Source: Geomonas silvestris (lineage in GTDB: Bacteria > Desulfobacterota > Desulfuromonadia > Geobacterales > Geobacteraceae). Taken from it: DNA of 64,000 bases. Positions 3,299-29,123 of the stretch are shown here, in pieces. The stretch is taken from the NCBI RefSeq assembly GCF_014193515.1, contig NZ_BLXX01000003.1, forward strand, positions 248,001 to 312,000, written 5' to 3'. A model generated the notes under the pieces. It was not told where the DNA came from. It was given only the letters and a program-made list of their open reading frames with translations, and did no database searches. The translations under genes and the position numbers were made by a program. Within the stretch, counting starts at the first letter, position 1; each line of letters starts with the position of its first letter.

Positions 3299-3308
3299 AA
3301 GCTAACCT

Positions 3309-3770
3309 CTAGTCGATGGATTGATAATTCAGTGCCGCGAAGATGGCGCGCAGGCTGAAGCCTTTGCGGCTTAAGTACCCCACCACCTTGCGTTTTTCCT
3401 TGTCCGGCGCGCTCTTCGCGTCGAAGCTCGCGAAACGCCGCTCGAGGGTCTCCCGCAAAAGCGTGCCCTCGTCGAACTCCTCGTCGATCTCGCGTAAGGT
3501 CTCGCGGATCACCGCCTCGGCAACCCCGCGGCGCGCCAGTTCCAGCTTGATCCGGCTCCCGAAGCCCCGGCCGTTTCTCACGGCGCTCGCGGCGAAGCTG
3601 CGCGCGAAGCGGGCGTCGTCCAGGTACCCAAGCTCCTTGAGGCGCGCCACGGCCTCCTCGACCCCCTCGCTAAACCCCTTCTCCTTGAGCTTGCGCCTGA
3701 GCTCCGCTTCCGAGTGGTCGCGCAGGGCGAGCACGCGCAGCGCACTCTCCATGGGGGTGCTGGTGCGCAC
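3309..3770 (-). CDS. recX: RecA regulatory protein RecX
   Basis: RecX binds RecA filaments and limits recombinase and coprotease activity. The 153-residue protein shows the three-helix repeat pattern of the family, including LRVLALRDHSEAELRRKL near the N-terminus and a YLDDARFARSF block. A GTG start directly abuts the pilT stop codon; an in-frame ATG at 3752 would remove only six residues and is an equally good start. The gene is translationally coupled to pilT and only one gene removed from recA, a common arrangement. Confidence 0.93.
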   Translation of the reverse strand: MRTSTPMESALRVLALRDHSEAELRRKLKEKGFSEGVEEAVARLKELGYLDDARFARSFAASAVRNGRGFGSRIKLELARRGVAEAVIRETLREIDEEFDEGTLLRETLERRFASFDAKSAPDKEKRKVVGYLSRKGFSLRAIFAALNYQSID

Positions 3771-4922: not shown

Positions 4923-4933
4923 GGTGGTTTACC

Positions 4934-5932
<999 letters not shown>

Positions 5933-6051
5933 GCGGTATCTCCTGTCGCCCCCGTCGGGGGCGTCGTTGGTTAAGGTTGTTGTGCACAAAATTCTGCCAA
6001 AACTAGCACGAAATGCTCGGGACTTTCAAGTTTTCGTCTGCTTTTTCTTTC

Positions 6052-6087
6052 ATCCGTCCGATCCGTCCGATCCGTCCGATCCGTCCG
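6052..6087. repeat. four tandem copies of a 9-bp unit (ATCCGTCCG)
   Basis: Four perfect direct copies of a nine-base unit lie between the kinase stop codon and recA. They are non-coding on both strands in the chosen annotation. Replication slippage would explain them, and copy number is likely to vary between strains. Confidence 0.85.
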
Positions 6088-6097
6088 ATCTCGGAAG

Positions 6098-8092: not shown

Positions 8093-8328
8093 GGCAGCTA
8101 CCTGTGACAGCGAGATCCGTTATGAGATCCGGGGCTCCCCCCGGTGGTACCCGTTGCAACGAGTTACGGCATGGATGACAACTGCTCGGCCGGGAAGTCT
8201 CCCGTGCGGTAGGGGCTTTACCCCATAGGCAGGAGAAGCCTGAGCCCGCGAGGCATGATCCCCAAAAGCACCGCAGCTGACCTCACGTGCTCCCCTTCGC
8301 AAAGGGGGGGTACGAGAATTCGGCGGAC
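8093..8328. other. intergenic region between kinase and cinA
   Basis: No convincing gene is seen here. It should hold the kinase promoter and ends in the small hairpin at 8291-8310. The weakly open frames crossing it lack ribosome sites and protein-like composition. Confidence 0.5.
8291..8310. repeat. short GC hairpin of the CCCC-TTCGCAAA-GGGG type
   Basis: A C-run and a G-run flank a short TTCGCAAA core, giving a small stem-loop just past the cinA stop codon. A longer relative with the TTGCGAA core is at 21624-21646, so this appears to be a dispersed intergenic repeat that may also serve as a 3' end for cinA. Confidence 0.45.
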
Positions 8329-9567
8329 CTAGCCCCGGACCTTCCCGGCGAGGAGCTGCCGGCGCAGCCAGTTGAGCGCGGTGAAGCAGGTGATGGCGCG
8401 GACCCGCTCCCGGTCGCCGGGGAACTGGTGGCGCTTGGCGCGGCACCCCTTCGCGTCGGCGAGTGCTATGTACACCGTCCCCACCGGCTTTTCCGCGCTC
8501 CCCCCCTCGGGGCCTGCGATGCCGGTGACCGAGATGGCGATAGCGGCGCCGCTCTTGGCCCGCGCGCCTTCGGCCATGGCGAGCGCCACTTCCTCGCTCA
8601 CCGCGCCGCGCGCGGCGATGAGTTCCGGCGCCACGCCGAGGAGCCGGCTCTTGGCCTCGTTGGAGTAGGTGACGGCGCCTTCCAGAAACCAGGCGGAGCT
8701 CCCGGCGGTCCGGGTGACCCGCTCGGCGATCATCCCGCCGGTGCAGGATTCGGCCAAGGCCAAAGTGGCGCCCGTTTTCCTGAAGAGCTCCGCGAGCACC
8801 GAGTCGAGCGTCGCCTCGTCCTCGGCAAAGAGGTGGTGCGCCATCCGCCCGCGCAGCGCCGCAAGCGCCGCCTGGTGCTCGGCCGGGTGTGTGCCCGGAG
8901 TGCGCAGGATCAGGTGGATCTCCGGGAACTTCACGCAGTAGGCGAGCTGCACCGGCGACCCTTCGGGAAGCACCCCCTCGAGCTCCGCCGCGGCGACCGC
9001 CTCGGGGAGGCCGAAGATCTTCAGGGTGCTGCGCAGCCCGGGGGTGACGCCGCTTGCCGTGAGGAGGACCGGAAGTACCGTCTCCTCGAGCATCGGCTTC
9101 ATCTCGAAGGGGACGCCGGGCATGAAGTAGCAGTCGGCCCGGCCGATGCTCACCCGAAAGCCGGTGGCGGTGCCGTTGGGGTTCGGGATCAGGCCGCACC
9201 CCTGGGGGAGCTGGGCCTGGCGGTCGTTCAAGGGGTGCAGCTCGCGGTTGAGCCTCTTGGCGAATTCCGCCAGGTGGGCCTGGGCTTCGGGGGAGTGCGC
9301 GAGCGGAACCCCGGCGGCGCGCGCGGCCGCGGCCGAGGTGAGGTCGTCCGGGGTCGGCCCCAGGCCGCCGGTGGCGAGCACCACGTCGTACACGGCAGCG
9401 AGCTCGTTAAGCGCGGCCACGATGGCCTCCTCGTCGTCGCCCACCATCAGGTGGCGCTCGGCGCGTAGCCCCAGGTCGTAGAGCCTCGTGGCGAGGTAGC
9501 TCTGGTTGGTGTCGGTCACCTCGCCGCAGATGAGTTCGTCGCCTATGGAAAGGGTGGCTACCTTCAC
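8329..9567 (-). CDS. cinA: CinA family nucleotide-damage/NMN amidase-like protein
   Basis: CinA proteins combine an N-terminal MoaB/Mog-like COG1058 domain with a C-terminal PncC-type domain that deamidates nicotinamide mononucleotide. The N-terminal part begins KVATLSIGDELICGEV with the TNQSYLA block and ATGGLGPTPDDLT motif. The C-terminal part shows LALAESCTGGMIAERVT, including the catalytic Ser region, and SVTGIAGPEGGSAEKPVGTVYIAL. I chose the GTG at 9567 because its GTGA overlaps the pgpA stop codon. The frame is open further upstream, but that segment lies inside pgpA. The gene gives about 412 residues, normal for CinA. Confidence 0.93.
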   Translation of the reverse strand: MKVATLSIGDELICGEVTDTNQSYLATRLYDLGLRAERHLMVGDDEEAIVAALNELAAVYDVVLATGGLGPTPDDLTSAAAARAAGVPLAHSPEAQAHLAEFAKRLNRELHPLNDRQAQLPQGCGLIPNPNGTATGFRVSIGRADCYFMPGVPFEMKPMLEETVLPVLLTASGVTPGLRSTLKIFGLPEAVAAAELEGVLPEGSPVQLAYCVKFPEIHLILRTPGTHPAEHQAALAALRGRMAHHLFAEDEATLDSVLAELFRKTGATLALAESCTGGMIAERVTRTAGSSAWFLEGAVTYSNEAKSRLLGVAPELIAARGAVSEEVALAMAEGARAKSGAAIAISVTGIAGPEGGSAEKPVGTVYIALADAKGCRAKRHQFPGDRERVRAITCFTALNWLRRQLLAGKVRG

Positions 9568-10013
9568 AGGAACCTCAGCACCAGGTGCAGGCAAAGGCAG
9601 GCGTAGATCCCGGCCGCGATGTCGTCAAGCACCACGCCGAAGCCGTTTTTCAGCGAGCGGTCGAACCAGCGCGCCGGCTGCGGCTTCACGATGTCGAAGA
9701 GACGGAACAGGAGAAAGCCGGCGAGGACCGACTGCCAGCTGAGGGGGGCGGCCGTCATGGTCACCAGGTAGCCGGCCACCTCGTCGATGACGATCTTCCC
9801 GGAGTCCTTCTCGTTGAAGACCCCTTCGGCAAGGCCGGCGGCCCAGCAGGAAAAAAGGGTGAAGGCGAGCGTGGTGAGGAGGTAGAGCGGCAGGGGGAGC
9901 CGGGAGAGCGCGAGGTAAAAGGGGATCGCCCCGAGCGTCCCGACGGTGCCGGAGGCGAACGGGGAGAAACCGGTACCGAACCAGGTTGCGGAAAGGATCA
10001 CGAAGCGCCTCAT
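9564..10013 (-). CDS. pgpA: phosphatidylglycerophosphatase A
   Basis: PgpA removes the phosphate from phosphatidylglycerophosphate in phosphatidylglycerol synthesis at the inner membrane. The 149-residue protein has the family opening (ATWFGTGFSPFASGTVGTLGAIPFY), several hydrophobic helices, and the conserved VIDEVAGYLVTM segment. It overlaps larC upstream and cinA downstream by four bases each (ATGA-type and GTGA-type junctions), so larB-larC-pgpA-cinA reads as one translationally coupled operon. Confidence 0.95.
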   Translation of the reverse strand: MRRFVILSATWFGTGFSPFASGTVGTLGAIPFYLALSRLPLPLYLLTTLAFTLFSCWAAGLAEGVFNEKDSGKIVIDEVAGYLVTMTAAPLSWQSVLAGFLLFRLFDIVKPQPARWFDRSLKNGFGVVLDDIAAGIYACLCLHLVLRFL

Positions 10014-11173
10014 CCCTGCCAGGTCTCCCTCTCCACGGTGCGGTACACCTCGATGAGCGGCAGCCCCTTCTTAAGGGCGATGCGGCGGCATTCTTCGAAC
10101 TCGGGGGTGATCCGGCCGTTACCCAGCACCTTCACCTTGAGCTTCCCGAGCGTAGTCTCCCGCTCCTCGATGCGGCGCTCTAGGGTGATCCGCTTGACCG
10201 GGTAGTAGCGCAGCCCGATCGCGCTCGATTCGGCGAGGATGAGGCCCGAGAGGCGCTCCAGGTCTCCAGGGTTCGCCAGTACGCTCACCAGGGTCCCGGG
10301 GCGGTTCTTCTTCATCTGCAGTGCGGCGAAGCTTACGTCGAGGGCGCCGGCCTCCAAAAGTCTTTCCATGAGAAAGCCCAGGAGCTCCGGGGTCATGTCG
10401 TCGACCTGGGTCTCGAGAACCAGGACCTCGCCGGCGTCCGACCCGGCCGTCTCCTCGAGTTCGCCCAGCACCAGGCGGAGCAGGTTGGGGACCTCGGCGA
10501 AGTCCTTCTCCCCCGCGCCGTACCCCATCCCCTGCACGGTCATGGGGGGCGGCGGGCCGAAGCTCTCGGCGAGCGCCGCGACGATGGCGGCGCCGGTCGG
10601 GGTGACCCGCTCCCCCTCGCCGATGTCGGCGGTGAGCGGAATTCCCTTCATGAGGAGCGCGGTGGCAGGGGCGGGGACCGGGAGCCTGCCGTGTGCGGTC
10701 CAGACGAAGCCGCGTCCGAAGGGAAGCCCCGAGGAGTAGACCTTCTCCACCCCCAGGTAATCGAGGCCGATGGCGGTCCCCACGATGTCGACGATGGAGT
10801 CCACCGCGCCCACCTCGTGGAAGTGCACCCGCTCGAGCGAGACGCCGTGCACCTGGGACTCCGCCTCGGCGAGCCGGCGGAAGATCTTCTGGGCGAGCTC
10901 CTTCGCCCGGGGCTTCAGCGGTGCCTGCTCGATCATCCGGGCGATGTCGCTGTAGTGGCGGTGCGGCTGGTCCTCCTCGGAAAGCCGCACCCTGAAGCCG
11001 GTGCCGGAGACCCCGTGGCGCTCGGCCGGCACGCTCTCCAGCGTGTACCCGGTGAAGGGGAGCTTGGCCAGCTCCCCGCGCAGCACCTCGAGCGGCAGCC
11101 CCAGTTCCAGGAGCGCCGCCACGGTCATGTCCCCCGCGATCCCCGCGAAACAGTCGAAATAGATGACCTTCAT
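10010..11173 (-). CDS. larC: nickel pincer cofactor nickel-insertion protein LarC
   Basis: LarC inserts Ni(II) into the pyridinium bisthiocarboxylate nucleotide to make the nickel-pincer cofactor of lactate racemase and related enzymes. The 387-residue protein has the family start (IYFDCFAGIAGDMTVAALLELG), the HEVGAVDSIVDIVG segment and the C-terminal ferredoxin-like part (ETQVDDMTPELLGFLMERLLEAGALDV). The usual histidine-rich insertion is short here. It overlaps larB and pgpA. No larA or larE is in the window, so the client enzyme is elsewhere or unknown. Confidence 0.93.
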   Translation of the reverse strand: MKVIYFDCFAGIAGDMTVAALLELGLPLEVLRGELAKLPFTGYTLESVPAERHGVSGTGFRVRLSEEDQPHRHYSDIARMIEQAPLKPRAKELAQKIFRRLAEAESQVHGVSLERVHFHEVGAVDSIVDIVGTAIGLDYLGVEKVYSSGLPFGRGFVWTAHGRLPVPAPATALLMKGIPLTADIGEGERVTPTGAAIVAALAESFGPPPPMTVQGMGYGAGEKDFAEVPNLLRLVLGELEETAGSDAGEVLVLETQVDDMTPELLGFLMERLLEAGALDVSFAALQMKKNRPGTLVSVLANPGDLERLSGLILAESSAIGLRYYPVKRITLERRIEERETTLGKLKVKVLGNGRITPEFEECRRIALKKGLPLIEVYRTVERETWQG

Positions 11174-11925
11174 GCCCTATCCCTGTTGATCAGGCTGGCC
11201 GCGTAGGCCGCGCCGAAACCGTTGTCGATATTTACCACCGTGACCCCGGCCGCACAGGAGTTCAGCATCCCCAAGAGCGCCGCCACCCCGTTGAAGGCGG
11301 CCCCGTACCCCACCGAGGTCGGCACCGCGATCACCGGCTTGTCCACCAGGCCGCCGACCACCGAGGGGAGCGCCCCCTCCATGCCGGCCACCACGACGAC
11401 CACCGAGGACTCGCTCAAAAGGTGCCGGCGCGACAAGAGCCGGTGCAGTCCCGCTACCCCCACGTCGAAGAGCTGCTCGACCTCGTTCCCCATGAGGCGC
11501 GCGGTGAGCACCGCCTCGGCAGCCACCGGGATGTCCGAGGTTCCGGCGCAGATCACCAGGATCTTGCCCCGCCCCCGGTTTACGATGGGGTGCTTCTCGA
11601 TGCTGAGGGCCCGCGCGTCGGCGTGGTAGACCGCCTCGGGGAAGAGCTCCTTGAGTTTGCGACCCTTGAAGCCGCTCACCCGGGTCGCCAGCACGTTGGA
11701 ACCCTTGTTGATGAGCGCGGTGATGATGGCCTGCATCTGCGCCACCGTCTTGCTCTGGCCGTAGATCACCTCGGGGAAGCCTTGGCGCAGCGCCCGGTGA
11801 TGGTCCACCGTCGCGCAGCCGAGGTCCTCGAAGGGGAGGTGTTTCAGCGTTTCCAGCGCCTGGCTCACGCCGAGCGTCCCTTCGCTCACTGCCTGGAGGA
11901 TTTTCTCTATGTTTGCCTGCTCCAT
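11170..11925 (-). CDS. larB: nickel pincer cofactor carboxylase LarB
   Basis: LarB carboxylates and hydrolyses nicotinic acid adenine dinucleotide in the first step of nickel-pincer cofactor synthesis. The C-terminal half resembles AIR carboxylase PurE: ILVICAGTSDIPVAAEAVLTA, VVVVVAGMEGALPSVVGGL and PVIAVPTSVGYGAAFNG. The 251-residue length is normal. It is the first gene of the operon with larC, pgpA and cinA; its promoter should lie just above 11925. Confidence 0.93.
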   Translation of the reverse strand: MEQANIEKILQAVSEGTLGVSQALETLKHLPFEDLGCATVDHHRALRQGFPEVIYGQSKTVAQMQAIITALINKGSNVLATRVSGFKGRKLKELFPEAVYHADARALSIEKHPIVNRGRGKILVICAGTSDIPVAAEAVLTARLMGNEVEQLFDVGVAGLHRLLSRRHLLSESSVVVVVAGMEGALPSVVGGLVDKPVIAVPTSVGYGAAFNGVAALLGMLNSCAAGVTVVNIDNGFGAAYAASLINRDRA

Positions 11926-12140
11926 GCTCAGAATGGTTCCTCCGAATGCTCAAAAGCGGGTCAAGGCTACCACATCAACGGATTTTTCGCTGCAAAAAAT
12001 AACTGTTGACCCACACGGCTCAAGGCTCATTGACAGCGGCCTGCCGGTCCGTTCATGGTTCTCTGGTTTTCACAGCCAAGGGGAGTTGCCGAAGTAAGGG
12101 TAGGGGGAGGGAATTTCCGGCAGATGGTACCGCGAACCCG

Positions 12141-12854
12141 TCACAGAGAGTCCCGAAGCTCTTTGAGGATCTCCAGCTGGCGCTGGTTGATCAGGGTTGC
12201 CAGGAACTGCTCGGTTTGCTGGTCGTGCTGGAACCGGAAGGTGCAGCGAAAGGGTGCCGACGCGCCGGAGCACTGCACCAGGGAGCAGGGGATGCGCGTG
12301 CAGTTGGGGAGCCCGGTCGTCTTGTCGATGATCTTCAGCTCGAGGCGCAGGTCCCGGCCACCTTCCAGTCCGCTGCGCACCAGGGTGTTGATGCAGCAGC
12401 CGCCCACGGAGATGTCCTGTACCACGCCGGAGATGCGGTCCGGGCCGCAGTGCAGGATCACGCTGATCGGCTTGTTGAGGCGCACCCGGACCGTCTGGCG
12501 GTTTTCGGCTTTGAGCTCCACGCTCGCGAAGTCGCAGAGTCTGACCAGGTTGCGCCGGATGTCGATGCTCTCCAGCCTGCCGAGCACCGTCTGCTCCAGG
12601 TACGGCGCGCGGATGAAGACCTCATTGCACTGGGCGATGGCCGCGAGCTGCAACTCGCTCGTGCTGAGCTCGACGTGTCGCCCGCGGATGTCGCTGATGG
12701 TGGCGGGGTGGGTGATGGGGAGTTCCTTGTAGATGTTGATGAGGGTGAGGCTTGCTTCGGGCTGTTCGGTTTTGAGCTGCTGCAGCACCCCGACGATGCG
12801 CAGCTGCTCCTCGGAGGCGGGTTCCTGGCTATGCTGGTCGCTGTTCACGGTCAT
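12141..12854 (-). CDS. PilZ domain protein, YcgR-like, probable c-di-GMP receptor
   Basis: The 237-residue protein has an N-terminal flagellar-brake-like beta domain (about residues 20-115) and a C-terminal PilZ domain. The c-di-GMP motifs are readable: an RxxxR signature (RQTVR) followed by the DxSxGG box (DISVGGCCI). PilZ proteins with this layout bind c-di-GMP and tune motility or secretion. It lies just downstream of a GGDEF cyclase on the same strand with a 214-base gap, so the two may act in the same circuit. No signal peptide or membrane segment is seen. Confidence 0.85.
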   Translation of the reverse strand: MTVNSDQHSQEPASEEQLRIVGVLQQLKTEQPEASLTLINIYKELPITHPATISDIRGRHVELSTSELQLAAIAQCNEVFIRAPYLEQTVLGRLESIDIRRNLVRLCDFASVELKAENRQTVRVRLNKPISVILHCGPDRISGVVQDISVGGCCINTLVRSGLEGGRDLRLELKIIDKTTGLPNCTRIPCSLVQCSGASAPFRCTFRFQHDQQTEQFLATLINQRQLEILKELRDSL

Positions 12855-13068
12855 GGTCGCAACTCGCTTCTACAGGTTAAGATGCTGAAATGATGGGCAA
12901 TCGGTAGTCTTGCCAGGTGCCGGCGCACGACATGCATAAGTATATGCTAATGATATTTGATTTTCCAGCGGCGGTAAAAATTTTCCGACGGACGGCTAGG
13001 GGGAGATCGTAGGTGCAGCGAAGGGGCGGTGTCCGGAGGGGGCGGCACGAAAAGGTCCGCGCCCCGCG

Positions 13069-15174
13069 CTAACAGGGGCGCTCGCTTCCGGGACGCTCGG
13101 AAGCGGGGGGATGGGTGAGGCAGCGCCCGACGTCGATGGGGAGCGCCGGCAGCACCGAGCTCTCCTCGGGGCGCTCCGCGGCGGCCTCCTCGGCCGCGCG
13201 GCGGTAGAAGCAGAAGTCGTTGCGGCCGTGCTCCTTCGCCTGGTACATGGCGAGGTCGGCGTTACGCACCAGGGTCTCGCCGTCCTGGCCGTCCTGCGGG
13301 TAGAGGCTGATGCCGATGCTGACGCTCGACTGCACCGGCTGCTCCGACAAGACGAAGACCCGCGCCAGTTCGTCCACCACGTGCCGAGCCACCACCGCGG
13401 CGTTCTCGGAGTTTTGCAGGTCGGACAGGATGACCAGGAACTCGTCCCCGCCGTAGCGGGCGATGGTGTCGCCCGAGCGGCAGCAGCAGGCCTTGAGCCG
13501 CTTGGCCACCCCCTGCAGCAACTGGTCGCCGATGGCGTGGCCGAACTCGTCGTTCACCGCCTTGAAAGAGTCCAGGTCGATGAACATGACGGCCAGGAGT
13601 TGGTTGTTGCGGGCGGCAAAGGCGATGGCCTGCCGCAGGTGGTCGTGGAACAGGTGCCGGTTGGGAAGGCCGGTCAGGGTGTCGTGGAAGGCCAGGTGCT
13701 CGATGGTCTCCTCCATGCGCCGTTTCTCGGTGATGTCCCGCACCACCTCGATTCCGGCGATGATCCGGCCGCTCGCGTTTCTCAGGGGAGAGGCGGTGAC
13801 CTCGGTGAAGATCTGCTGCCCGAAGGGGCTTACGCTGCGCACCGAGGAGTGGATCAGGCCGTCCTGGAAGGCGAGTGCCATCGGGCACCCAGGGCAGACG
13901 CTGTCGTGATTCTCGAATGCCTGGTAGCAGAGCTTCCCCACGTGGTTCCCCATCAGGGCGATCCCCTGCTGGTTCTGGTAGATCACCCGGAACTCCGTGT
14001 TCATGATGGTGAGCCCGACCCCCATGGCGGCGATGATCGCCTGGGTCTTCGCCTTCTCGTTTTCCAGGTTGGTGATCGCTTCCTGCAGCGCCAGGTGCTC
14101 GGTCGCCAGGCGCAGCACCATCTCGTTGAAGGCCGAGCCGAGATCGGCTATCTCCGCCGCGGTCGAGGGGGGGACCTGCTCCGGGACGCCGTCGCGCATG
14201 GAGAGGGTGCGGATCCGCTCGGTGAACCGGGAGAGCGGCGCCATCTGGTAATGCATGAGGAGCCAGACGATCCCGACCGAGGCGCCGGCTCCTGCCAGGG
14301 CTGCGATGTTCGCGTACTTCTTCGCCTTGGCGATCGGGGCGTAGGCCTCCTGCACCGGGAAGTTGGCGGCCAGTATCCAGTCGGTGTTCTTCAGGTGGCG
14401 TACCGTGGTGAGCGAACTCACCCCTTTGGAGTTCAGCGACTCCTCGGTCCCCTCGAAGCCCGCGATCCCCTTGTCGAAGGCCCGGTTCACCCCCGGTTTC
14501 AGGTCCTGCTTCATGATGCGGGAAGGGTCCGGGTGCATGATGAGCATCCGCGAAGAGTTGTAGAGGTAGAGGTAGCCCGTGTCGCCGATCTTGACCCGCG
14601 AGAGCTTGCCCAGGAAATTGTCCCGGGTCAGGTCGAGGCTGCCGGCCAGGATGGCCACCAGTCTCCCCTGGGGGTTGACGAGGGGGACGGTCAGGATGAC
14701 GGCGGGTTTGCCGGGGGTGTGGGTGGATACGTAGGGGTCGGAGATCTGCGGCCTCATGGTGGCCACGGTCTTCCTGTAGTACTCGCGAAAGGCGATGTCG
14801 CGCCCCCGGCGCCCTTTGATGTAGGGGGACTCGACGATGATCTTCCCCTCGGCCGAGAAGAGAAAAAGGGCGTTGTCGAAGATGGTGTGCAGGGCGGGGC
14901 GGCTGTCCAAGAGCTGCTGGGCCTCCTCGGGCCTGCCGGGGTCTACGGATAGAAAGAGGGGAGCTTCGGCGATAAGCGCCTGCTGGGCGTCCTGCAGGTC
15001 GGCGTCGATGCTGTCGCAGATCTCGGAGACCATCGAGAACTGCTGCTTGGAGATGAGCTGTTTGAGCTGGTACTCGAAATGGTCGTTGATGACGCTCGAG
15101 AACAGGAAGATGATCCCCACCGTGAGCAGGGAGACCGAGAGGCCAACTTTGGTTTTGATCTGGTGTCTCCTCAT
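13069..15174 (-). CDS. membrane diguanylate cyclase (dCache-HAMP-PAS-GGDEF)
   Basis: Diguanylate cyclases make c-di-GMP from two GTP. A transmembrane helix near residue 20 and another near 305 bracket a double-Cache periplasmic sensor (motifs FREYYRKTVATMRPQISDPYVS and GDTGYLYLYN). A HAMP-like linker, a PAS domain and a GGDEF domain follow. The active site is intact (ARYGGDEFLVIL), and an RSGD I-site five residues before it predicts product inhibition. I chose the ATG at 15174 for its GGAGGAG ribosome site rather than the upstream start. The ligand sensed by the Cache domain is unknown; it is divergent from the formate dehydrogenase operon. Confidence 0.92.
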   Translation of the reverse strand: MRRHQIKTKVGLSVSLLTVGIIFLFSSVINDHFEYQLKQLISKQQFSMVSEICDSIDADLQDAQQALIAEAPLFLSVDPGRPEEAQQLLDSRPALHTIFDNALFLFSAEGKIIVESPYIKGRRGRDIAFREYYRKTVATMRPQISDPYVSTHTPGKPAVILTVPLVNPQGRLVAILAGSLDLTRDNFLGKLSRVKIGDTGYLYLYNSSRMLIMHPDPSRIMKQDLKPGVNRAFDKGIAGFEGTEESLNSKGVSSLTTVRHLKNTDWILAANFPVQEAYAPIAKAKKYANIAALAGAGASVGIVWLLMHYQMAPLSRFTERIRTLSMRDGVPEQVPPSTAAEIADLGSAFNEMVLRLATEHLALQEAITNLENEKAKTQAIIAAMGVGLTIMNTEFRVIYQNQQGIALMGNHVGKLCYQAFENHDSVCPGCPMALAFQDGLIHSSVRSVSPFGQQIFTEVTASPLRNASGRIIAGIEVVRDITEKRRMEETIEHLAFHDTLTGLPNRHLFHDHLRQAIAFAARNNQLLAVMFIDLDSFKAVNDEFGHAIGDQLLQGVAKRLKACCCRSGDTIARYGGDEFLVILSDLQNSENAAVVARHVVDELARVFVLSEQPVQSSVSIGISLYPQDGQDGETLVRNADLAMYQAKEHGRNDFCFYRRAAEEAAAERPEESSVLPALPIDVGRCLTHPPASERPGSERPC

Positions 15175-15204
15175 GGGCGCCGCTCCTCCGGGCAACGCTG
15201 ACAA

Positions 15205-15633
15205 CTATGACATAAAAATATTTTAAGAAAACACTCTCCCGCAAAGTTTTCAGCTTCCCGCCACCCGGAACCTCCCGAGGGACGCGAGTCATCCCGCTGC
15301 CGGAACCGGCAAGCCTCAACCTCCTTTCGCCTGCACCGTGGTGCGCCTTCCCTGCACCCACTGAATGAGTTAGATTAAAAAGCCGTAAATGTTGACTGAG
15401 TATTTTGCTTGCCATGTTGAAAGACAGTTTCCCGTTTCGAGCTCTGTCTGAGAATCTCGGCCAGATTCTGTCAATAAAAGAAACGTCTCACGTTGACACG
15501 GGAGCAAGTTCTGCTTGAATTACGGAGGTTGACGGATAAAACGCACTTTCCAGGCAGTTAGCTTCGGTTCAGCTAGAAATCGTTATTTAAAGTGTCAGGA
15601 AGTTACTCGTTCAGACAGTGGGAGGTTCTTTAC
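15205..15633. other. divergent intergenic region between cyclase and formate dehydrogenase
   Basis: About 430 bases hold promoters for both flanking transcription units. The left part is AT-rich near the cyclase start. A sigma-70-like promoter facing right is at 15493-15521. A second ribosome-site-like sequence (ACGGAGGT near 15522) has no usable ORF after it. No other gene is seen. Confidence 0.5.
15493..15521 (+). promoter_or_regulatory. putative sigma-70 promoter of the formate dehydrogenase operon
   Basis: A perfect TTGACA box is followed after 17 bases by TGAATT. It is about 110 bases upstream of the catalytic-subunit start. The -10 box is weak, so activation by a regulator is possible. 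Confidence 0.4.
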
Positions 15634-18600
15634 ATGAAACTTAGCCGGCGCAAATTTCTCAAGGTGACCTCTGGCGTGGTGGGGGGCGGCGTCGCTGCCG
15701 AACTCGGACTTTTGGGGGTGAACACCGCCGCTGCCGCCGCCAAGGCGGGGAAGGTCCCGATCAAAACCGGGCGGCAGGTGCCGAGCATCTGCCCGTACTG
15801 CGCGGTCGGCTGCGGCCAGATCGTCACGGTGAGCGATGCCGGGGAGATCGTGGACATCCAGGGGAACCCGGACTCCCCGATCAGCCAGGGGACGCTCTGT
15901 CCGAAGGGGGCCGCGACCTTTCAGCTCGTCAAGAACGAGCAGCGCTGGACCACGGTCAAGTACCGCGCCCCCGGCAGCGACCGCTGGGAGGAGAAGCCGC
16001 TCGACTGGGCCATGCATCGCATCGCCGAGCTCACCAAGAAGACCCGCGACGCCCACTTCAACGAGTTCCAGGAGCTGCCCGACGGCAAGGATGGCACGGT
16101 CAAGAAGCGGGTGATGAACACCTACGCCCTCGCCTCCTTGGGCGGCGCCACCATGGACAACGAGTGGAACTACCTGCACCAGAAGCTCATGCACGGCCTG
16201 GGGGTGGTCTACCTGGAAAACCAGGCCCGAATATGACACTCCTCGACGGTCCCCGGTCTGGGGACCACGTTCGGCCGCGGCGGCTCCACCACCTTCCCGC
16301 GCGACCTCGAGAAATCCAACGCCGTCCTCATCATGGGCTCCAACATGGCCGAGTGCCATCCGGTCGCCTTCCGCTGGCCCCTGAAGGCGCGGACCGAACA
16401 TGATGCGGTGCTCATGCACGTCGATCCCCGCTTCACCCGCACCTCGGCCGCCTGCGACCTGCACGTGCCGATCCGCGCCGGCAGCGACATCGCCTTTCTG
16501 GGCGCCATCATCAACCACGTGATCAACTCGAAGCGCTGGAACGAGGACCCCTTCTTCCGCGAGTACGTGGTGAACTACACCAATGCCGCCACCCTGGTGA
16601 ACCCCGAGTACAAGGACACCGAAGAGCTGGGCGGCGTCTTCTCGGGGCTCGCCCCGAACGGCAAGTCCTACGCGAACGCGAGCTGGTCCTACCAGAGAAA
16701 CCCCGCGCCGCCCAAGGGGAAGGCCGGCCTCGGCCCCTTCAGCGACCTGTTGCTGCAGCAGGTGCCGGGGCGCCCCAAGACCGACCCGACGCTTGAGGAC
16801 CCCCAGTGTGTCTTCCAGATCATCAAGAAGCACTTCGCGCGCTACACCCCGGACCTGGTGGGCCGGGTCTGCGGCTGCACCCCGGAGCAGTTCCTGAAGG
16901 TCGCCGACACCATGCTCAACAACTCCGGTCGCGACAAGACCTCCAACATCACCTACGCCGTGGGGTGGACCCAGCACACCGTCGGGGTGCAGATCATCCG
17001 GGCCGCCGCCATGCTGCAGGCGCTTTTGGGCAACATCGGGCGCCCGGGAGGTGGCGTACTCGCCCTGCGCGGCCACGCAACCATCCAGGGCTCGACCGAC
17101 ATCGCGACGCTCTACCACTCGCTGCCGGCCTACCTGAACATGCCGGACGGCCGCAAGAACCACGAGACCCTGAAGGACTTCATCCTCACCGAGGGGGGCC
17201 CCGCCGCCACCAGCTACTGGGGGAACTATCCCAAGTTCGCGGTCTCCTACTTCAAGGCGCAGTACGGCGCCGCGGCAACGGCCGAGAACGACTACGGCTA
17301 CAACTACCACCCGAGGATCACCGGCGACCACTCGCACATGCCGATGATGCTCGACATGGCGGCGGGCAAGATCAAGGGGTTCTTCGTCATGGGGCAGAAC
17401 CCGGCGGTGGGGGGGCAGAACGCGCGCCTGCAGCGTAAAGCCCTGGCCAAGCTGGACTGGATGGTGGTGCGCGACTACTTCGAGACCGAGACCGCCGCCT
17501 TCTGGCGCAACTCCCCCGAGGTCATCTCCGGCGAATTGAAGCCCGCCGAGATCAAGACCGAGGTCTTCTTCCTCCCCGCGGCCGCGGTCGCCGAGATGGA
17601 AGGCTCCTTCACCAACACGCAGAGGCTCCTGCAGCAGCACGACAAGGCGGCCGACCCCCCCGGCGACGCGCGCAGCGACAGCTGGTTCACCTACCGCCTC
17701 GGGAAACTGTTGAAGGAGATGTACCGCGACTCGCCGCTCGACATCGACTGGGGGGTCAAGAACCTCGCCTGGGACTACGACCCGGAAGCGAAGGAGGTGG
17801 CCCCCTGGCGTATCAAGGACGAGCCCTCGGCCTACCGGGTCCTCAAGGAGATCAACGGCTACACGGTGGCGGACCAGAAACCGCTTCCCACCTTCGCGAA
17901 CCTGAAGGAGGACGGCTCCACCGCCTGCGGCGCCTGGATCTACACCGGCGTCATTCCCGAGGAAGGGAAGAACAACGCGGCGCGCCGCAAGCCCGACGAC
18001 TGGATCTCGCCAAACTGGGGCTTCGCCTGGCCCGCCAACCGGCACATCATGTACAACCGCGCCTCGGCGGACCGCGAGGGGAAACCCTGGTCCGAGGCGA
18101 AGAAGCTCATCTACTGGGATCCGGCAGCCGACTCGGGGACCAAGGACCCGGCGGGCAACCCGGTGAAAGGGAAGTGGGTGGCGCCGTCGGGCGAGGGAAT
18201 CGACTTCCAGCCCACCAAGGCGCCCGGCTTCATCGGCAAGGACGCAGCGCTCGGTTTCGACTGGCTCTCGGGCAACGACGCCTTCATCATGCGCCCCGAC
18301 GGCAAGGCCTCGCTCTTCGTCCCGGCGGGTCTCGTGGACGGCCCGCTCCCGACCCACTACGAGCCCTACGAGTCGCCCGTCAAGAACCCGGTCTACCAGC
18401 AGCAGGTGAACCCGGTCGCCAAGGTCTGGCAGGTGAACGGCAACAGCTACCATGCCGTCGCCGATCCGAAGTTCCCGATCGTGGTCTCCACCTACCGGGT
18501 CACCGAGCACCACCTAAGCGGCACCATGAGCCGCTGGCTCCCCTGGCTCGCCGAGCTGATGCCGGAGCTTTTCTGCGAGATCTCTCCCGAGCTTGCGGCC

Positions 18601-18879
18601 GAGAAGGGGATCAAGAACGCGGAGTACGTGACCATCCAGACCGCGCGCGGCGAGATCCAGGCCCGGGCGCTGGTGACCCGCAGGATGAAGCCCTTCACGA
18701 TCGACGGCAGGAAGGTCCACGAGATCGGCATCCCCTGGCACTGGGGGTGGCAAGGGAACGCGGCCGGCGACGTCGCCAATGACCTGAGCGCCATGGTGGG
18801 CGACCCCAACGTCTCCATCCACGAAGGTAAGGTGTTCACCTGCGACATCAGGGCTGGCAGGAAAGGAGGGCGGATCTGA
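15634..18879 (+). CDS. fdnG: formate dehydrogenase catalytic subunit, selenocysteine-containing
   Basis: This subunit oxidises formate to CO2 at a bis-MGD molybdenum or tungsten centre on the outer face of the membrane. It is one gene of 1081 residues interrupted only by an in-frame TGA at 16234-16236, read as Sec201. The context ARI-U-HSSTVPGLG matches the Sec site of FdnG-type enzymes, and a SECIS hairpin follows. A twin-arginine signal (SRRKFLK, residues 4-10) directs folded export. One [4Fe-4S] site is formed by Cys53, Cys56, Cys60 and Cys89. I chose the ATG at 15634 for its GGGAGG ribosome site and because it starts the Tat peptide. The stop overlaps the next ATG (ATGA). Annotation pipelines may split this gene into two ORFs. 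Confidence 0.96.
16234..16266 (+). promoter_or_regulatory. selenocysteine codon with bacterial SECIS hairpin
   Basis: The TGA at 16234 is followed after 11 bases by a perfect 7-bp stem GGTCCCC/GGGGACC closing a GGTCT loop. The distance and the GGU(C)U apical loop match the SelB-binding hairpin known from the E. coli formate dehydrogenase mRNAs. It lies inside the coding frame, as is normal for bacteria. Confidence 0.93.
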
Positions 18880-23954: not shown

Positions 23955-24473
23955 TTAGTGGTTTTCCCCGTGGTGCATCTCCCCCGGGTGTTCCATGTGC
24001 CCCGCGTGCCCCTTGTGCAGCTGGGCGTCCTCGCGTGCCGCGGCGAGTACGGTATCCCAGTCAACCAGCTTTCCGCCGTGCTCTTTCACGAATTTCTCGG
24101 CAATAGCCTGCTCGGCAAAGGCCCATTTGGGGCGCTTGGTCATCACCCCGCGCTTGTCGCCACCCATGACCCACACCGCTTTCGACGCTTCGACCAATCC
24201 GCGGCTGTCCCGGTCGGCGACCAGCAGGGCTTTTACGGTCTTCTCCGGGTGTTTGTCCATCTCGATCACCGCGCAGTTCAGGCTGCAGACCCCGGTCTCG
24301 CTGCCGTCCGCAAAGCGGAGCAACATGCGCGAGTAGCCGAAGGCCTTGCGGTCCATGCCGCAGTTCTCGCACGAGGCGTGAGCCGCGATGTCGTCCGCCG
24401 CCAGCGCGGCGCTTCTCACCCCGAACGCGGCGACAAAAGCCAGACAAAGTACGATTACCAGTTTGATCTTCAT
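23955..24473 (-). CDS. NosL-like exported copper-binding protein
   Basis: NosL proteins are envelope copper chaperones for nitrous oxide reductase. Here a signal peptide (residues 1-26) precedes the family's metal-site motif CENCGM (Cys35, Cys38, Met40), then SCSLNCAV-type cysteines in the core. The C-terminus is rich in His and Met (HKGHAGHMEHPGEMHHGENH), which would add soft-metal ligands. No nosZ is in the window. It is the last gene of a three-gene set with a TlpA-like lipoprotein and a beta-barrel, so it may serve copper delivery to another enzyme. The family match is good; the client is unknown. Confidence 0.82.
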   Translation of the reverse strand: MKIKLVIVLCLAFVAAFGVRSAALAADDIAAHASCENCGMDRKAFGYSRMLLRFADGSETGVCSLNCAVIEMDKHPEKTVKALLVADRDSRGLVEASKAVWVMGGDKRGVMTKRPKWAFAEQAIAEKFVKEHGGKLVDWDTVLAAAREDAQLHKGHAGHMEHPGEMHHGENH

Positions 24474-24520
24474 AGTTGCTGCCCTCCTTTAATTATTTGT
24501 CCCGCGAAAAGCGATGCTTG

Positions 24521-24595
24521 CCACGGAGACACGGAGCGCACGGAGAAAATAATAACGACCATTGTATCTTCGAGCCTTTCTCCGTGCCTCCGTGG
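24521..24595. repeat. inverted repeat built from CCACGGAG/CTCCGTGG arms
   Basis: A left arm of three ACGGAG-type blocks (24521-24548) is answered by TTTCTCCGTGCCTCCGTGG (24577-24595) across an AT-rich loop. It sits between the nosL-like gene and the TlpA-like gene. A related half-element is at 42434-42462. It looks like a dispersed intergenic repeat of this genome. Confidence 0.65.
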
Positions 24596-24612
24596 CGGAT
24601 TCCGCGTTTTAG

Positions 24613-25152
24613 TTATGGGAGCCCCGCCAGCGCGGCCTGCAGCCGGCTGCCGTTACGAAAGTCCTCGTTCAGGAGGATCACTCCGGCCGCGTCGATCACC
24701 ACCGTGGTCCCCATCGTCCCCTGCAGCGAGTTCTGCATCTGGTGCCCGGTGTCCGCCAGGATGCCGAAGCCGACCCCGGTGAAACCGTTGGCCAGTGCCG
24801 CAGCGGCCGCATCCGTCACGCTTCCCGAGACGTAGTCGACCAGGTAGAAGCCGACGTCGGGATAGGACGGGATCATGGTCTGCAATTGTGCGGTCTGCTC
24901 GTCGCAGCTCGGACACCACATGGTGAAGTAGAGCACGATGGCCTTCTTGCCGGAGAGTGCCGAGGCCCGCGTCACGGTGGTGCCGGAGATCTCGCTCACG
25001 CTGAAGTCGGCAGCGTTCTGGCCGACTCCCGGCCCGGTGCTGCCGGATTGAACGGGCGGGCGCTGGTCGGTTCCCGAAGGGACCAGGTTGTCGCCGCAGC
25101 CGGCCAGCGCAACGCAGAGCAAAAGGATCATGCCGAGTCTAGCGAAACACAT
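24613..25152 (-). CDS. TlpA/redoxin-family thiol-disulfide lipoprotein
   Basis: The 179-residue protein has a short lipoprotein signal with lipobox ALAGC (Cys19), a Ser/Thr-rich linker and a thioredoxin fold. The active site is WCPSC (Cys80 and Cys83) after the strand AIVLYFTM, and a GTMGTTVVID segment occupies the cis-proline region but lacks an obvious proline. It is thus a tethered periplasmic redoxin. The ATG at 25152 overlaps the beta-barrel gene by 14 bases; ATG at 25131 is an alternative that keeps the lipobox. It could keep cysteines of the NosL-like copper site reduced. Confidence 0.85.
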   Translation of the reverse strand: MCFARLGMILLLCVALAGCGDNLVPSGTDQRPPVQSGSTGPGVGQNAADFSVSEISGTTVTRASALSGKKAIVLYFTMWCPSCDEQTAQLQTMIPSYPDVGFYLVDYVSGSVTDAAAAALANGFTGVGFGILADTGHQMQNSLQGTMGTTVVIDAAGVILLNEDFRNGSRLQAALAGLP

Positions 25153-26125
25153 AGCGCACCCCCACGGTGAAGATGTCGGTGGTCGGGAAGTTCCTGCCCC
25201 AGCCTGACTCCCGGATGGCGTGGTTCCAGCCGGCGCGCACGCTCCAGTCGCGATCGGTTCCGGCGAAGGAGAGCATGCCCCCCACCGACTGCTTCATGAA
25301 GCCGCTGTTCGGGTCGCGCTGCCCGTTGTAGCTCACGTCGGCCTCGTCGAGATATGCGTAGGAGGCGGTCGTGGTGAGCGTGTCGCCCCCGGTCCCCAGG
25401 AGGAACCCGTAGCCAAGCGATGCGGAGAGGAAGGTCCGGTCACCCAGATCCTTGTGGTAGGGTTCCACGTACTTGCCGTATTCGCGGTTCACGCTGCGCT
25501 CGAAATAGGTGCCGTAGCTCGCGGCAAGGGAGAGGTCCCAATGCCTGATCATCTTCTCGATGTAGAGGTTGCCATCGAGCCGGTAAAAGCCGCGGCCGGT
25601 CACGTCGAAGCTGCTTTTCAGGTCGTCATAGGGCGAGTAACCGGTGGGGAGCAACAGGGATAGCCCGATGCTCACCGCGGGGACCAGGTCGCGGGCCGTG
25701 TGCACCCGCCAGGGCGACGTGTCGTCCAGGAGGTCGTACCAGACCGAGAGGGTGGTGTCGCCCAGGCCGCTGGTCTGGCTGGACACCCCCGAATAGGTGT
25801 TGTCGTTCCACAGGTAGGGGATGATGAGACTCACCTGCCAGTCCTCGAAGAACCGGTAGGCACCCCCCAGGTTCAGGCGGTACTGGTTCAGGTCCGCTCC
25901 GGGCGGGTCGCTGGTATGCCGGCCGTTTTGATTCCAGAATCCGTGGTAGTTCTCGTAGTCGAAGGATAGATCGGCAACTGCCTTGGCGTACTTGGGAACC
26001 ATCAGTGCGGTATTGGAGCCGCCTCCGCAGCAGGAGCCGGCCCAGGCGGTGCCGGAGCCGGCCAAAAGGCACCCCGCGACAAGCGCGGCCTTAAGGGTGC
26101 CGGAAAGATTGCGCAACAGCGTCAT
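25139..26125 (-). CDS. outer membrane beta-barrel protein with SCCGGG N-terminus
   Basis: A signal peptide (residues 1-29) is followed by SCCGGGSN and a series of amphipathic beta strands ending in a terminal aromatic/Arg pattern (VRYVFR). A GLGDTTLSVWY strand recurs in two other barrels in this window. Such proteins are annotated loosely as transporters. The two adjacent cysteines right after the signal may bind a metal or form a disulfide. It has a GAGGTG ribosome site and is the first gene of the set with the TlpA-like lipoprotein and NosL-like protein. Function unknown. Confidence 0.78.
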   Translation of the reverse strand: MTLLRNLSGTLKAALVAGCLLAGSGTAWAGSCCGGGSNTALMVPKYAKAVADLSFDYENYHGFWNQNGRHTSDPPGADLNQYRLNLGGAYRFFEDWQVSLIIPYLWNDNTYSGVSSQTSGLGDTTLSVWYDLLDDTSPWRVHTARDLVPAVSIGLSLLLPTGYSPYDDLKSSFDVTGRGFYRLDGNLYIEKMIRHWDLSLAASYGTYFERSVNREYGKYVEPYHKDLGDRTFLSASLGYGFLLGTGGDTLTTTASYAYLDEADVSYNGQRDPNSGFMKQSVGGMLSFAGTDRDWSVRAGWNHAIRESGWGRNFPTTDIFTVGVRYVFR

Positions 26126-26267
26126 GCGTCACCTCGATTCGTTCGGTAGAGGAAGCAACCCCCGAGGCACTGCTCCATACGTCGGTGGCATCCCCGGGAG
26201 GGGGTGGGGGAAGCCGCCATCTTTACCGCAGAGCCTCCGGGACTGCTGGAGGGAAGTACCAAAATAA

Positions 26268-26293
26268 CCGGACAGGGGCTTTGCCCCTGCCCG
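26268..26293 (-). terminator. probable terminator after the large lipoprotein gene
   Basis: Arms CAGGGGC/GCCCCTG with a TTT/AAA loop are extended by CCGG pairs. On the minus strand it is followed by GGTTATTTT. It lies about 15 bases past the lipoprotein stop. Confidence 0.6.
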
Positions 26294-26304
26294 GGATCGT
26301 CACG

Positions 26305-27897
26305 TCAAGGTGTCACACTGAAGGCTGCAAAACCGTTACTGAGCGCCGGATTGCTGTTGCCGTCCGGCGCATTGCCGTTGGTCGTGTAGGTGGTGCCGTT
26401 GATCGTGAGGCGCAGGTAGTACTTCGCGGTCGTTCCCGCAGTCATGGCAAGCCCTGCCGCGGTGTAGCGTCCGGTTGTGCCGACCGGGGCGAGTGCTGTC
26501 CAGGTGCTGCCATCGCTGGAGATGGCGACCTCGACGCTGCCCAGGGTAAGCTGGGGTTGGGTCCACTGCTGACCGGCGTAGACCGGGAGGGCCAAGCCGG
26601 CATCGGTGGAGGAGACGAAGACGGTCAGGTCATAGCTGCCACCGGTTGCGGTGCTCAGCGTATCCCTCCAGATCCGGTAGGTCCGATTGGTGGCCCCGAC
26701 CTTGTCGCCGCTGTTGGCCAGTTTCGCGGAAATGGTGTTGCCGGCGGGAAGCGCTTTGACGTTGGGATAGAAGGTGGCGGTCTCGGTTCCGATCACGATG
26801 CTGAGCTTCCAGTACATATCGATGCCGGTGGTCGCCATGCTGTAGTAGACGGTTCCGGCGTAGACGCCGGGGTTGCGGGTCTCGGTAACCGCGTTCGCCC
26901 AGGTTGAGCTGCTACTCATGGTTCCCATCACCATGAGCGGGGTGAGCGCGATCTGTGAGGCTAGGCCAAGCGCGGGCGACCCGTCGCTGCGCTTGGTCAC
27001 CTGGAACTGGAAGGTGTCCTTCCCCGCAACGTCGCCGCCGGCAGGTGCGATGTAGTCGACGCGGTAGCTCGGGGTGAGCGAGACGGAGCTGAAGGCGGGA
27101 GGCTCGAGGGTGCTGCCGGCGACCTTGCTCTTGTTGAAGCTGCCGGACTCGTAGTTGATGGCGGCGGTCGCGAAGGCCACGCCGACATCCTCGGGAACGG
27201 GGGTACCCGAGGCCGTGGTCACCGCGGCCGCGCCGTTTCTCCCGTCCAGGGTTCCGTCTGCCAGGTCTTCGGCGAGCGCTTCGACGAGCTCGGACTGTTT
27301 TCCCGGCGCCAGCGCGAGGTCCTTGGTGAGCTGGCTGAAGTAGGCGGCGTGCACGCCGGCGACGCGCGAGGCGGTGGGCGCGTTGCAGGAGATGTTGGCG
27401 AAAACCGGCGCGACGGAACTATCCGGAACAAAGCCGAAGGCCTGCTGGAAGGCGAGTTTCGCCGCGGTTAGCGTCATCCCCCTGGCGACCAGTTTCTGTA
27501 TGATCGTGCTGGCGGGATCGAGCGTTACCCGGGAGCCGGAGGCGCTCCCTGCCGCGACAAAGGCGCTGAAGCTGCCCAAGCTGACGCCGGAGGTGCCGGT
27601 CGCCTCGTCGGTGTAGCTGCCGCCGGTCGCCTGGAAGATCAGGTCGCGGCTCAAAGCGCTGCCCGGTACGGGAACCTGGAAGGAGCCATCGCTGGAGTTC
27701 ACGGTAAAGGGACCCGCGACCAGGTTGCCGCTCGTGTCTTTAACCGTGAGGGTGGTTCCGGTGACCGGGCCGGCGAAGACGGTGCCCGAAACGGTGGGCG
27801 TCGAGGCGGCCCCGCCGCCCGAACCGCCACCGCAACCGTACAGAAAGCACAGCGCCAAAAGGGAAAGAAGAAGGTAAAAAGGGATCGCTTTACGCAT
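26305..27897 (-). CDS. large exported lipoprotein with Gly-rich N-terminus
   Basis: The product is about 530 residues. A signal peptide ends in the lipobox FLYGC, followed by GGGSGGG, a frequent pattern in deltaproteobacterial surface lipoproteins. Residues about 35-130 resemble a carboxypeptidase-regulatory or Ig-like domain (VSGTVFAGPVTGTTLTVKD). The C-terminal half is Thr/Ser/Gly-rich and beta-like (SVEVAISSDGSTWTALAPVG). I chose the ATG at 27897 for its lipoprotein signal and GAGG site. The frame stays open to 28035 but only as low-complexity leader. No enzyme motif is seen; a surface or adhesive role is possible. Confidence 0.75.
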   Translation of the reverse strand: MRKAIPFYLLLSLLALCFLYGCGGGSGGGAASTPTVSGTVFAGPVTGTTLTVKDTSGNLVAGPFTVNSSDGSFQVPVPGSALSRDLIFQATGGSYTDEATGTSGVSLGSFSAFVAAGSASGSRVTLDPASTIIQKLVARGMTLTAAKLAFQQAFGFVPDSSVAPVFANISCNAPTASRVAGVHAAYFSQLTKDLALAPGKQSELVEALAEDLADGTLDGRNGAAAVTTASGTPVPEDVGVAFATAAINYESGSFNKSKVAGSTLEPPAFSSVSLTPSYRVDYIAPAGGDVAGKDTFQFQVTKRSDGSPALGLASQIALTPLMVMGTMSSSSTWANAVTETRNPGVYAGTVYYSMATTGIDMYWKLSIVIGTETATFYPNVKALPAGNTISAKLANSGDKVGATNRTYRIWRDTLSTATGGSYDLTVFVSSTDAGLALPVYAGQQWTQPQLTLGSVEVAISSDGSTWTALAPVGTTGRYTAAGLAMTAGTTAKYYLRLTINGTTYTTNGNAPDGNSNPALSNGFAAFSVTP

Positions 27898-28162
27898 AGA
27901 TATATCCTCGCGTACCAGGGTAGAGCTCACGGCGGAGCTCCCCGATGTGCCTGCCGGACCCCGGCGACCTGAGCTCGCATGGGAGCAGGCGCGCCGAAAA
28001 GGCGGCAAGGCGTGCGGATGCCGTGGCCTGAGCACCAGCTCGAGACGCCAAGCGGATGGTTCAGGGTACGAGTCCGGTCAGGGCGCAGCAGCTGCGCGGA
28101 AGATGGCCTGCCAGCGTCACACGCAGGCGGTTACCGATTCTTCCTGACAAGACGGCAAGGTG
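27898..28162. other. GC-rich leader between lipoprotein and Cys-rich genes
   Basis: This 265-base stretch upstream of the lipoprotein gene has many short inverted arms (for example GCGCAGCAGCTGCGC near 28083). I could not fit it to a riboswitch class. No gene with a ribosome site is seen. Confidence 0.4.
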
Positions 28163-28642
28163 CTAGCTCGCGAGGAGTCGTGGAGGTGGTTCGGGAGGTT
28201 CGGCCAAGCGGGAAACCGGCTGGCTCGGTGCTGCGGCAGGGGGGGGGGCGGAGAGCGGGGTGGCCAGGGCCGGGGTGAAGCTGAAGGGGATCGCTTCGCT
28301 CTTGGCGAAGTTGAGCAGGGTTACCTGCTTCGCAGAGCCGCAGGGGCAGCTGCACTTGAGGACCGGGGTGCCCTGTGCGCCTTTGGGCTTGCAGCACTCG
28401 CGGGTCTTTTCGTGCTGGTCGAACCTTTTCTTCTTAGCGCAGCAGCAGGTGTGGTTGGCGCGCTGTGCGGGCGAGCAGCCGCAGATGTCGCAGTCGCCGA
28501 CGCATTCGCCGGTGAGGGCATGGGCCAGGTGGGGGGAGCGCAGCGCCAAAGGCGCCAGCGGGCTCAGGGTCATAAGAAGGTAGACCACCGTGAGCAGCAG
28601 TGCCGTCAGGAAGCGACGTTGTGTGTGCCTGGAAACCTTCAC
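28163..28642 (-). CDS. cysteine-rich exported protein
   Basis: The start is probably the GTG near 28642, since the product then begins with a good signal peptide or signal anchor (RRFLTALLLTVVYLLMTL). The mature part is dense in cysteine: CVGDCDICGC, HTCCCAKKK, ECCKPKG and CSCPCGSA, 13 cysteines within about 75 residues. A Pro/Ala-rich tail follows. This is the pattern of a metal-binding or disulfide-knotted envelope protein. It is transcribed divergently from moeA across an AT-rich gap of about 480 bases. I do not recognise a named family. Confidence 0.7.
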   Translation of the reverse strand: MKVSRHTQRRFLTALLLTVVYLLMTLSPLAPLALRSPHLAHALTGECVGDCDICGCSPAQRANHTCCCAKKKRFDQHEKTRECCKPKGAQGTPVLKCSCPCGSAKQVTLLNFAKSEAIPFSFTPALATPLSAPPPAAAPSQPVSRLAEPPEPPPRLLAS

Positions 28643-28675: not shown

Positions 28676-29123
28676 AGCTGCCGATGCTGATAAAAAACAG
28701 CAGAAACGGCATTTTTTTGCAGGCGTTTCACTCTGCCCCGATTAAAGATGAACAAGCGCTGGCTGTGGGCTGGCAGAGAGAATCGCAATCTCTTAGTCTT
28801 CTATAATGCAATGACAGTGCCTGCAGAAAATTCGGCACATCGACTGACAAAAGAACGCATGCTATTGCGAGGGGTACAGTGACTATACTAAGTGCTCAGG
28901 AAAAATCAAGAGGACGTTAATGCGGGCGCTGTCTTTAACCGGACGGGAAGCATCTGGTGAGGAAAACTCTGCATACGTGAGGCAGTCTCTGGCTGAAACT
29001 CCCCCGGATCAGGAGGAACGCTGTGCCTTTGGGAAAAACTTGCAACTGACAATTGTCGCCAAATGTAGCATACTCTGCCAGGCCCGGATTCCGGGCGCTT
29101 CAGTCTCATCTCAAGGAGTCGTG
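28676..29123. other. divergent intergenic region before moeA
   Basis: AT-richer than its surroundings, with runs of A and T near 28690-28715. It must hold promoters for the Cys-rich gene and moeA. The frame preceding moeA is open from 28920 but is unlike MoeA and lacks a ribosome site, so I treat it as non-coding. Confidence 0.5.

Follow-up and report, generated by a model that had tools for sequence, protein, structure and literature searches.

Few proteins are known for the entry of copper across the outer membrane of Gram-negative bacteria, and copper uptake by Geobacter-like organisms is poorly known. A copper-dependent sulfite reductase is the client of the NosL encoded in the Shewanella sir cluster, and YcnK of Bacillus subtilis carries a NosL domain. 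The sir cluster lists nosL, together with nosY, without nosZ (PMC5955497), so the separation of a NosL from nosZ has a precedent. There the gene lies beside sir genes, and the other gene content of that cluster is unlike that of the operon described here. The ycnKJI copper-acquisition operon of B. subtilis shares with our locus a YtkA domain, found in YcnJ (PMC12362106), but it is Gram-positive, based on CopC/CopD, and has no barrel, redoxin or leader peptide. For Paracoccus, NosL is described as a delivery factor, and those NosL proteins that have been tested bind Cu(I) (PMC6530538). At the level of control, the nearest described counterparts are two leader peptides. CutF of Rhodobacter capsulatus has a signal sequence, a Cys motif and a Pro-rich end (PMC9973294). 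In CruR of Bordetella pertussis 45 residues separate the CXXC from the RAPP motif, a distance conserved within one or two residues and reported to play a role in copper control (PMC9426467).

Here we describe a five-gene unit on the minus strand of Geomonas silvestris, at positions 23955-28642 of the window, meaning the whole stretch of 64,000 nucleotides that was analysed. It encodes, in this order, a Cys-rich leader, a YtkA-like lipoprotein, an outer-membrane barrel-like protein, a redoxin lipoprotein and a soluble NosL-family protein. The preliminary description had recognized the barrel, redoxin and NosL ORFs at 23955-26125. All three are present on this strand as the last genes of the unit, and the three-gene extent was too short: the lipoprotein (26305-27897) and the leader (28163 to ~28642) lie upstream, in the same direction. 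Of the two genes missed, the leader gives the strongest clue to function.

A profile search with the barrel, first in 141 genomes of the order and then in 277 genomes of the class, returned 19 strong loci (>500 bits) from 19 different order-level genomes and one further class-level locus, G271. The order lipoprotein-barrel-redoxin-NosL was kept in all 19 order-level loci and in G271 (20/20), and thus the grouping noted earlier is not due to chance. G028, from the same genus as the window genome, and L011, a contig from MnB_3 (a Geobacter MAG), each have the complete set of five in identical order. The leader stood at the operon head in 15 of the 19 order-level loci; it was missing from three of the 18 in which this position was visible (L064, L078 and L079), and in L071 the contig edge intervened. 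The overlap between the barrel and redoxin genes consisted of the same 14 bases in 18/19 loci. The distribution was patchy, with a strong barrel match in only 2 of the 48 genomes of the window's family. Neighbourhoods covered ~6 kb around the barrel, and more in the window and in G121. L063, which duplicates L011, was excluded from the locus counts. Also left out were the weak barrel matches in G089 and G116, the second matches in G110 and G114, and those in G027 and G033, whose loci were judged by eye to be rhodanese-type clusters and not relatives of the operon. As to plasmid spread, neither barrel nor NosL had a tblastn match (E 0.01) in the plasmid collection. A role as a defence system was rejected, with PADLOC matching none of barrel, redoxin and NosL.

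The window leader (28163..28642, minus strand) is ~159 aa long if translated from the GTG at 28642, an inferred start codon; the mechanically called ORF begins at the TTG at 28675. It has a signal-like N-terminus ending in AHA, a Cys cluster (GDCDICGC..TCCC), then CSCPCG, and a C-terminal end, PPEPPPRLLAS, placed 48 residues past the Cys of PCG. Visual inspection and a motif search indicated that the leader is exported and that its mature portion has a Cys metal motif. The leader matched nothing in Pfam or NCBIfam, and a search of three leaders against DUF2946 (PF11162) gave no hit, even with E values as high as 10 allowed. A leader profile found matches in 60 of the 141 order genomes. We compared 40 leader ORFs, a set including L063 and both halves of the split L065 leader. 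In 39 of them the final 15 residues contained a PP, the exception being the first half of the split ORF, and the usual end was PPDPPP followed by a few residues, within a general PPxPPP tail. Measured from the PCG Cys, the distance to this tail was 48 residues in 31 of 38 ORFs and 47 in five, the remaining two having 51 and 52; the two ORFs outside the tail pattern were the first half of L065 and L105, which ends in LPPVPPPKV. The distance from the N-terminal Cys cluster to the tail varied, unlike the PCG spacing, between 101 and 158 residues (sd 18). Part of the constancy of the PCG spacing may be plain homology.

In its layout the leader resembles CutF and CruR. It is the product of a first gene, exported, with a Cys metal motif and a Pro-rich C-terminal tail, and it stands upstream of copper genes, OprC relatives among them. 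The fixed spacing is also alike, with 45 intervening residues in CruR and the PCG Cys 47–48 residues before the tail here. It differs in having no DUF2946 match and in carrying PPxPPP in place of RAPP, and the window leader, at ~159 aa, exceeds the limit of <150 aa used in the CutF survey. Because they are too long and not DUF2946 proteins, we regard the leaders as CutF/CruR-like in their working and not as members of these families. By analogy, the leader is probably copper-responsive, and the operon is probably under nascent-peptide copper control.

The leader family also heads operons of a different kind. A second copy in the window genome (C22, L080) is followed by genes for TonB and for a TonB-dependent receptor, the latter with OprC as its best solved relative (E 1e-38). 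The CPSRM and HLM of this receptor align with the copper ligands defined for OprC in PMC8610252, giving a CxxxM-HxM site. Within the receptor cluster, 12 of 15 ORFs carried both the CxxxM and the HxM motif; two of the others were shorter or cut, and one was full length (L098). Our operon is like those of the OprC/NosA transporters in that the same leader family heads them, in the window genome and in others, with the copper ligands conserved there. It is unlike them in the barrel itself, a different protein of about half the size that matches no TonB receptor family. These OprC orthologues appear to tie the leader family to the import of ionic copper.

On a single contig, L092, three leader copies headed different gene sets (1425-16338). 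Between the copies lay TonB, ExbB and a TonB-dependent receptor in which CxxxM and HxM motifs both occur.

The barrel-like protein (25139..26125, minus strand; 328 aa) begins, after AWA, with the mature N-terminus GSCCGGGS, in agreement with the SCCGGG start given in the preliminary description. SCCG at the mature start was invariant in 19/19 loci. The window barrel matched nothing in Pfam or NCBIfam, and scattered weak Pfam barrel matches (E up to 1) occurred among the 19 members, with PF13557 in four and DUF2490 in eight. Its barrel-like character is suggested by the signal sequence, a strand-rich prediction and these scattered matches. AlphaFold models built from two-sequence alignments, with pLDDT values of 33 (barrel) and 48, were too poor to use. 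The barrel and leader families belong to no clear curated family, and the other parts of the operon touch known ones.

The WCPSC lipoprotein of the preliminary description was recovered as an AhpC/TSA-type redoxin lipoprotein (24613..25152, minus strand). It has a lipobox (LAGC, C19), the WCPSC motif with C80-x-x-C83, and an AhpC-TSA match (PF00578) of 42.8 bits, cut-off 26; its gene overlaps that of the barrel by 14 nt. The lipobox Cys and the CxxC were invariant in 19/19 loci. The Sco/SenC copper chaperones carry a CxxxC motif; the redoxin here, with C-x-x-C in all 19, falls outside that group. The upstream lipoprotein (26305..27897, minus strand; 530 aa from ATG) contains a YtkA-like stretch below the curated Pfam cut-off (PF13115; E 0.061 in the window, 0.0031 in L011). 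YtkA is described as acting in oxidase metal loading in B. subtilis and in the YcnJ copper importer (PMC12362106). Another small YtkA-like protein was encoded between NosL and MacB-type ABC genes, immediately after NosL, in L076 (8095-8562) and in L078 (3545-4066); of these the L078 copy alone was scanned.

The NosL-family protein (23955..24473, minus strand) is predicted to be secreted and carries the motifs CENCGMDR and CSLNC. Its identity as NosL-like was borne out by a PF05573 score of 43.1 bits against a cut-off of 24, and the family profile matches the solved NosL chains 7og7, 2hpu, 7znq and 7osf. CxxCGMDR and CSLxC were invariant in 19/19 operon proteins, all of which therefore keep the CxM motif, within CGM, to which a copper role is ascribed (PMC6530538). 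Of the CENCGM protein with a His/Met tail described earlier, the motif is conserved, and the tail is peculiar to this copy, being absent from the other members with a complete C-terminus. On visual inspection none of the 19 signal regions, the window copy included, showed a lipobox, and the lipoprotein anchor of canonical NosZ-assembly NosL thus seems to be missing. The operon protein shares with the NosL of nitrous oxide reductase clusters the PF05573 match, the CxxCGM holding the CxM copper motif, and secretion. It differs from them by the absence of a visible lipobox, the extra CSLxC, a genome without NosZ and other neighbours.

The window genome has three NosL genes. The second (G000:C23, L008, NosL at 8837-9289, minus strand) is of the same CxxCGMDR/CSxxC type and lies behind MacB-like ABC genes and a cytochrome c plus Peripla_BP_6-type protein; modules related to this cluster adjoin the barrel operon in other genomes. 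The third (G000:C15, L007, 7254-12058, plus strand) has a ZnuA-like gene (so judged by eye) and a redoxin before it and FtsX-type ABC genes after it, which suggests a metal-handling cluster.

The preliminary description had proposed copper import or delivery to a client other than NosZ, in an anaerobe with no nosZ nearby. NosZ is indeed absent, both from the vicinity and from the whole assembly, where the best TIGR04246 matches were short, confined to the cupredoxin end, and reached 31.5 bits against a cut-off of 625. None of the 19 operon genomes has NosZ; its single occurrence among the 141 order genomes, in G006, lies outside them. A normal NosL displaced from a nos cluster elsewhere, the outcome named in advance as fatal to the proposal, is therefore ruled out in this genome. 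The import or delivery part of the proposal gains support from the link between leader and OprC. The label 'anaerobe' needs care, as the genome has five COX1-family, two COX2 and 13 Cu_oxidase_2 matches, and the missing client ceases to be a puzzle because the organism encodes several copper enzymes.

To relate the operon to such enzymes, we compared genomes with and without it. COX2 was found in 14/19 operon genomes and 74/122 others (Fisher p 0.32), and Cu_oxidase_2 in 16/19 and 82/122 (p 0.18), both being mildly commoner with the operon but not significantly so. COX1-family genes, counted in the 20 operon genomes alone and hence without a background, occurred in 17; no COX1-family match was obtained in G088, G093 or G271, which have the operon. 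In G121 a single strand carries, one after another, the operon, a further NosL, an ABC module and coxBAC. FtsX/MacB-type ABC modules or partner genes lay beside the operon in 8 of the 19 loci, some with an extra NosL (L064, L065, L066, L067 in divergent orientation, L070, L072 with one partner gene only, L076 and L078). Despite the coxBAC adjacency, the client does not appear fixed, since three operon genomes are without haem-copper oxidases; a cytochrome oxidase is likely the client in some genomes, not in all.

From the gene content and conserved motifs, we give a little better than an even chance to an operon for copper acquisition and periplasmic delivery that serves clients other than NosZ. 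The barrel would let copper pass the outer membrane and would have its Cys-Cys N-terminus on the periplasmic side. The redoxin would hold the metal as Cu(I) or keep the Cys residues of its partners reduced, and the YtkA-like lipoprotein and NosL would receive Cu(I). From these it could be handed over to NosL-linked ABC modules and to non-NosZ copper enzymes such as cytochrome oxidases and multicopper oxidases. The leader may sense copper during its synthesis, with the Cys motif outside the ribosome and a PPxPPP stall at its end, and the stalling would set the expression of the downstream genes, as CutF and CruR do. Weighing against this reading are the three operon genomes with no COX1-family match, the non-significant COX2 and Cu_oxidase_2 associations, the leaderless loci L064, L078 and L079, the poor barrel model, the YtkA match below the cut-off and the hairpin found in the window between lipoprotein and barrel. 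A bolder version, tentative and with clearly less than an even chance, is that arrest peptides of a new, copper-sensing class (PCG, 47–48 residues to PPxPPP) control two alternative import routes in one bacterium. One would be the TonB-driven OprC; the other would be a TonB-independent small channel with a periplasmic Cys-Cys mouth, passing Cu(I) via the redoxin lipoprotein to soluble NosL.

Two directions of copper movement are conceivable, as CutF-type control would fit defence and CruR-type control uptake. Through CutF, copper raises the expression of the next gene, and many CutF-like genes lie ahead of efflux genes (PMC9973294). PcoB/CopB are outer-membrane proteins linked to copper removal (PMC7558416). 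On this footing the leader could induce the operon at high periplasmic copper, in the manner of CutF/CutO, with NosL and the CC-headed barrel binding, exporting or sequestering the metal. We consider this unlikely: an efflux pump or multicopper oxidase gene never recurs in the conserved unit, within the ~6 kb inspected around the barrel, OprC-type importers are encoded in the sister operons that this leader heads, and the Paracoccus NosL delivers copper (PMC6530538). The lack of a recurring efflux part in the unit and the tie of the leader to OprC lead us to prefer uptake.

The same ~6 kb neighbourhoods revealed no other recurring enzyme gene inside the unit, which speaks against a maturation set dedicated to a single copper enzyme of the periplasm or outer surface, whether a cytochrome oxidase, a multicopper oxidase or another, in which the barrel serves the enzyme and not uptake. 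The G121 cluster adjoining coxBAC, the COX1-family genes in 17/20 operon genomes and the part of YtkA in B. subtilis oxidase metal loading (PMC12362106) would agree with such a set. However, haem-copper oxidases are absent from three operon genomes and the COX2 and Cu_oxidase_2 associations are not significant, and we hold this reading to be quite improbable. A cargo other than copper, either another soft metal or a sulfur species, seems very unlikely. CutF-like proteins with only His motifs do precede nickel/cobalt genes (PMC9973294), and two operons lie near cbi genes (L069 and L074), but our leaders are rich in Cys, the OprC copper site is conserved in the other targets of these leaders, and NosL binds Cu(I) where tested (PMC6530538).

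The gene combination was not recognized in the preliminary description, and we likewise found no account of the operon, the barrel family or the leader family in the open-licence literature, judged by titles and the beginnings of abstracts. We infer an operon of the copper-acquisition type with a copper-responsive leader, in which the barrel, the leader and the combination would be new. If true, metal-reducing bacteria have a TonB-independent copper route with its own periplasmic relay, and NosL-family proteins gain a role outside N2O reduction. Copper-responsive leader peptides would gain a new family, whose fixed Cys-to-tail spacing is a measurable geometric rule that makes the sensing model directly testable.

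Upstream of the leader, a weak sigma-70-like promoter match (9 of 12) was found at 28882..28909, minus strand, one of two in the region against 0.7 expected. Terminator-like sites were not more numerous in the region than by chance. In CutF a stem-loop shields the ribosome site of the next gene; folding of the sequence before the lipoprotein start gave z values of -2.1 to 0.6 in 14 loci, L011 being left out as no start was assigned, and offered no support for a stable stem-loop. A C-over-G bubble was computed as a candidate Rho site and discounted, because it coincides with the Pro-rich tail codons of the leader. Between the lipoprotein and barrel genes, a 12-bp hairpin followed by TTATTTT (26268..26294, minus strand) is a possible attenuator or partial terminator. 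This gap was enlarged and held a strong hairpin in both genomes of the genus (window 26126-26304; L016 8238-8370), and ranged from -13 to 61 nt in the 17 remaining loci. The hairpins in this gap of the window and of G028 suggest that, in this genus, the genes of the operon are unevenly expressed. The redoxin-NosL gap (window 24474-24612) contained a long inverted repeat of the CCACGGAGGCACGGAG type, which may be a dispersed repeat, because one arm word recurs in L007 of the same genome. Elsewhere in the window, at 15676-18879 on the plus strand, a formate dehydrogenase alpha subunit appeared selenoprotein-like, with a single in-frame TGA as codon 187 of the portion read (ENQARI-U-HSS) and the frame open on both sides.
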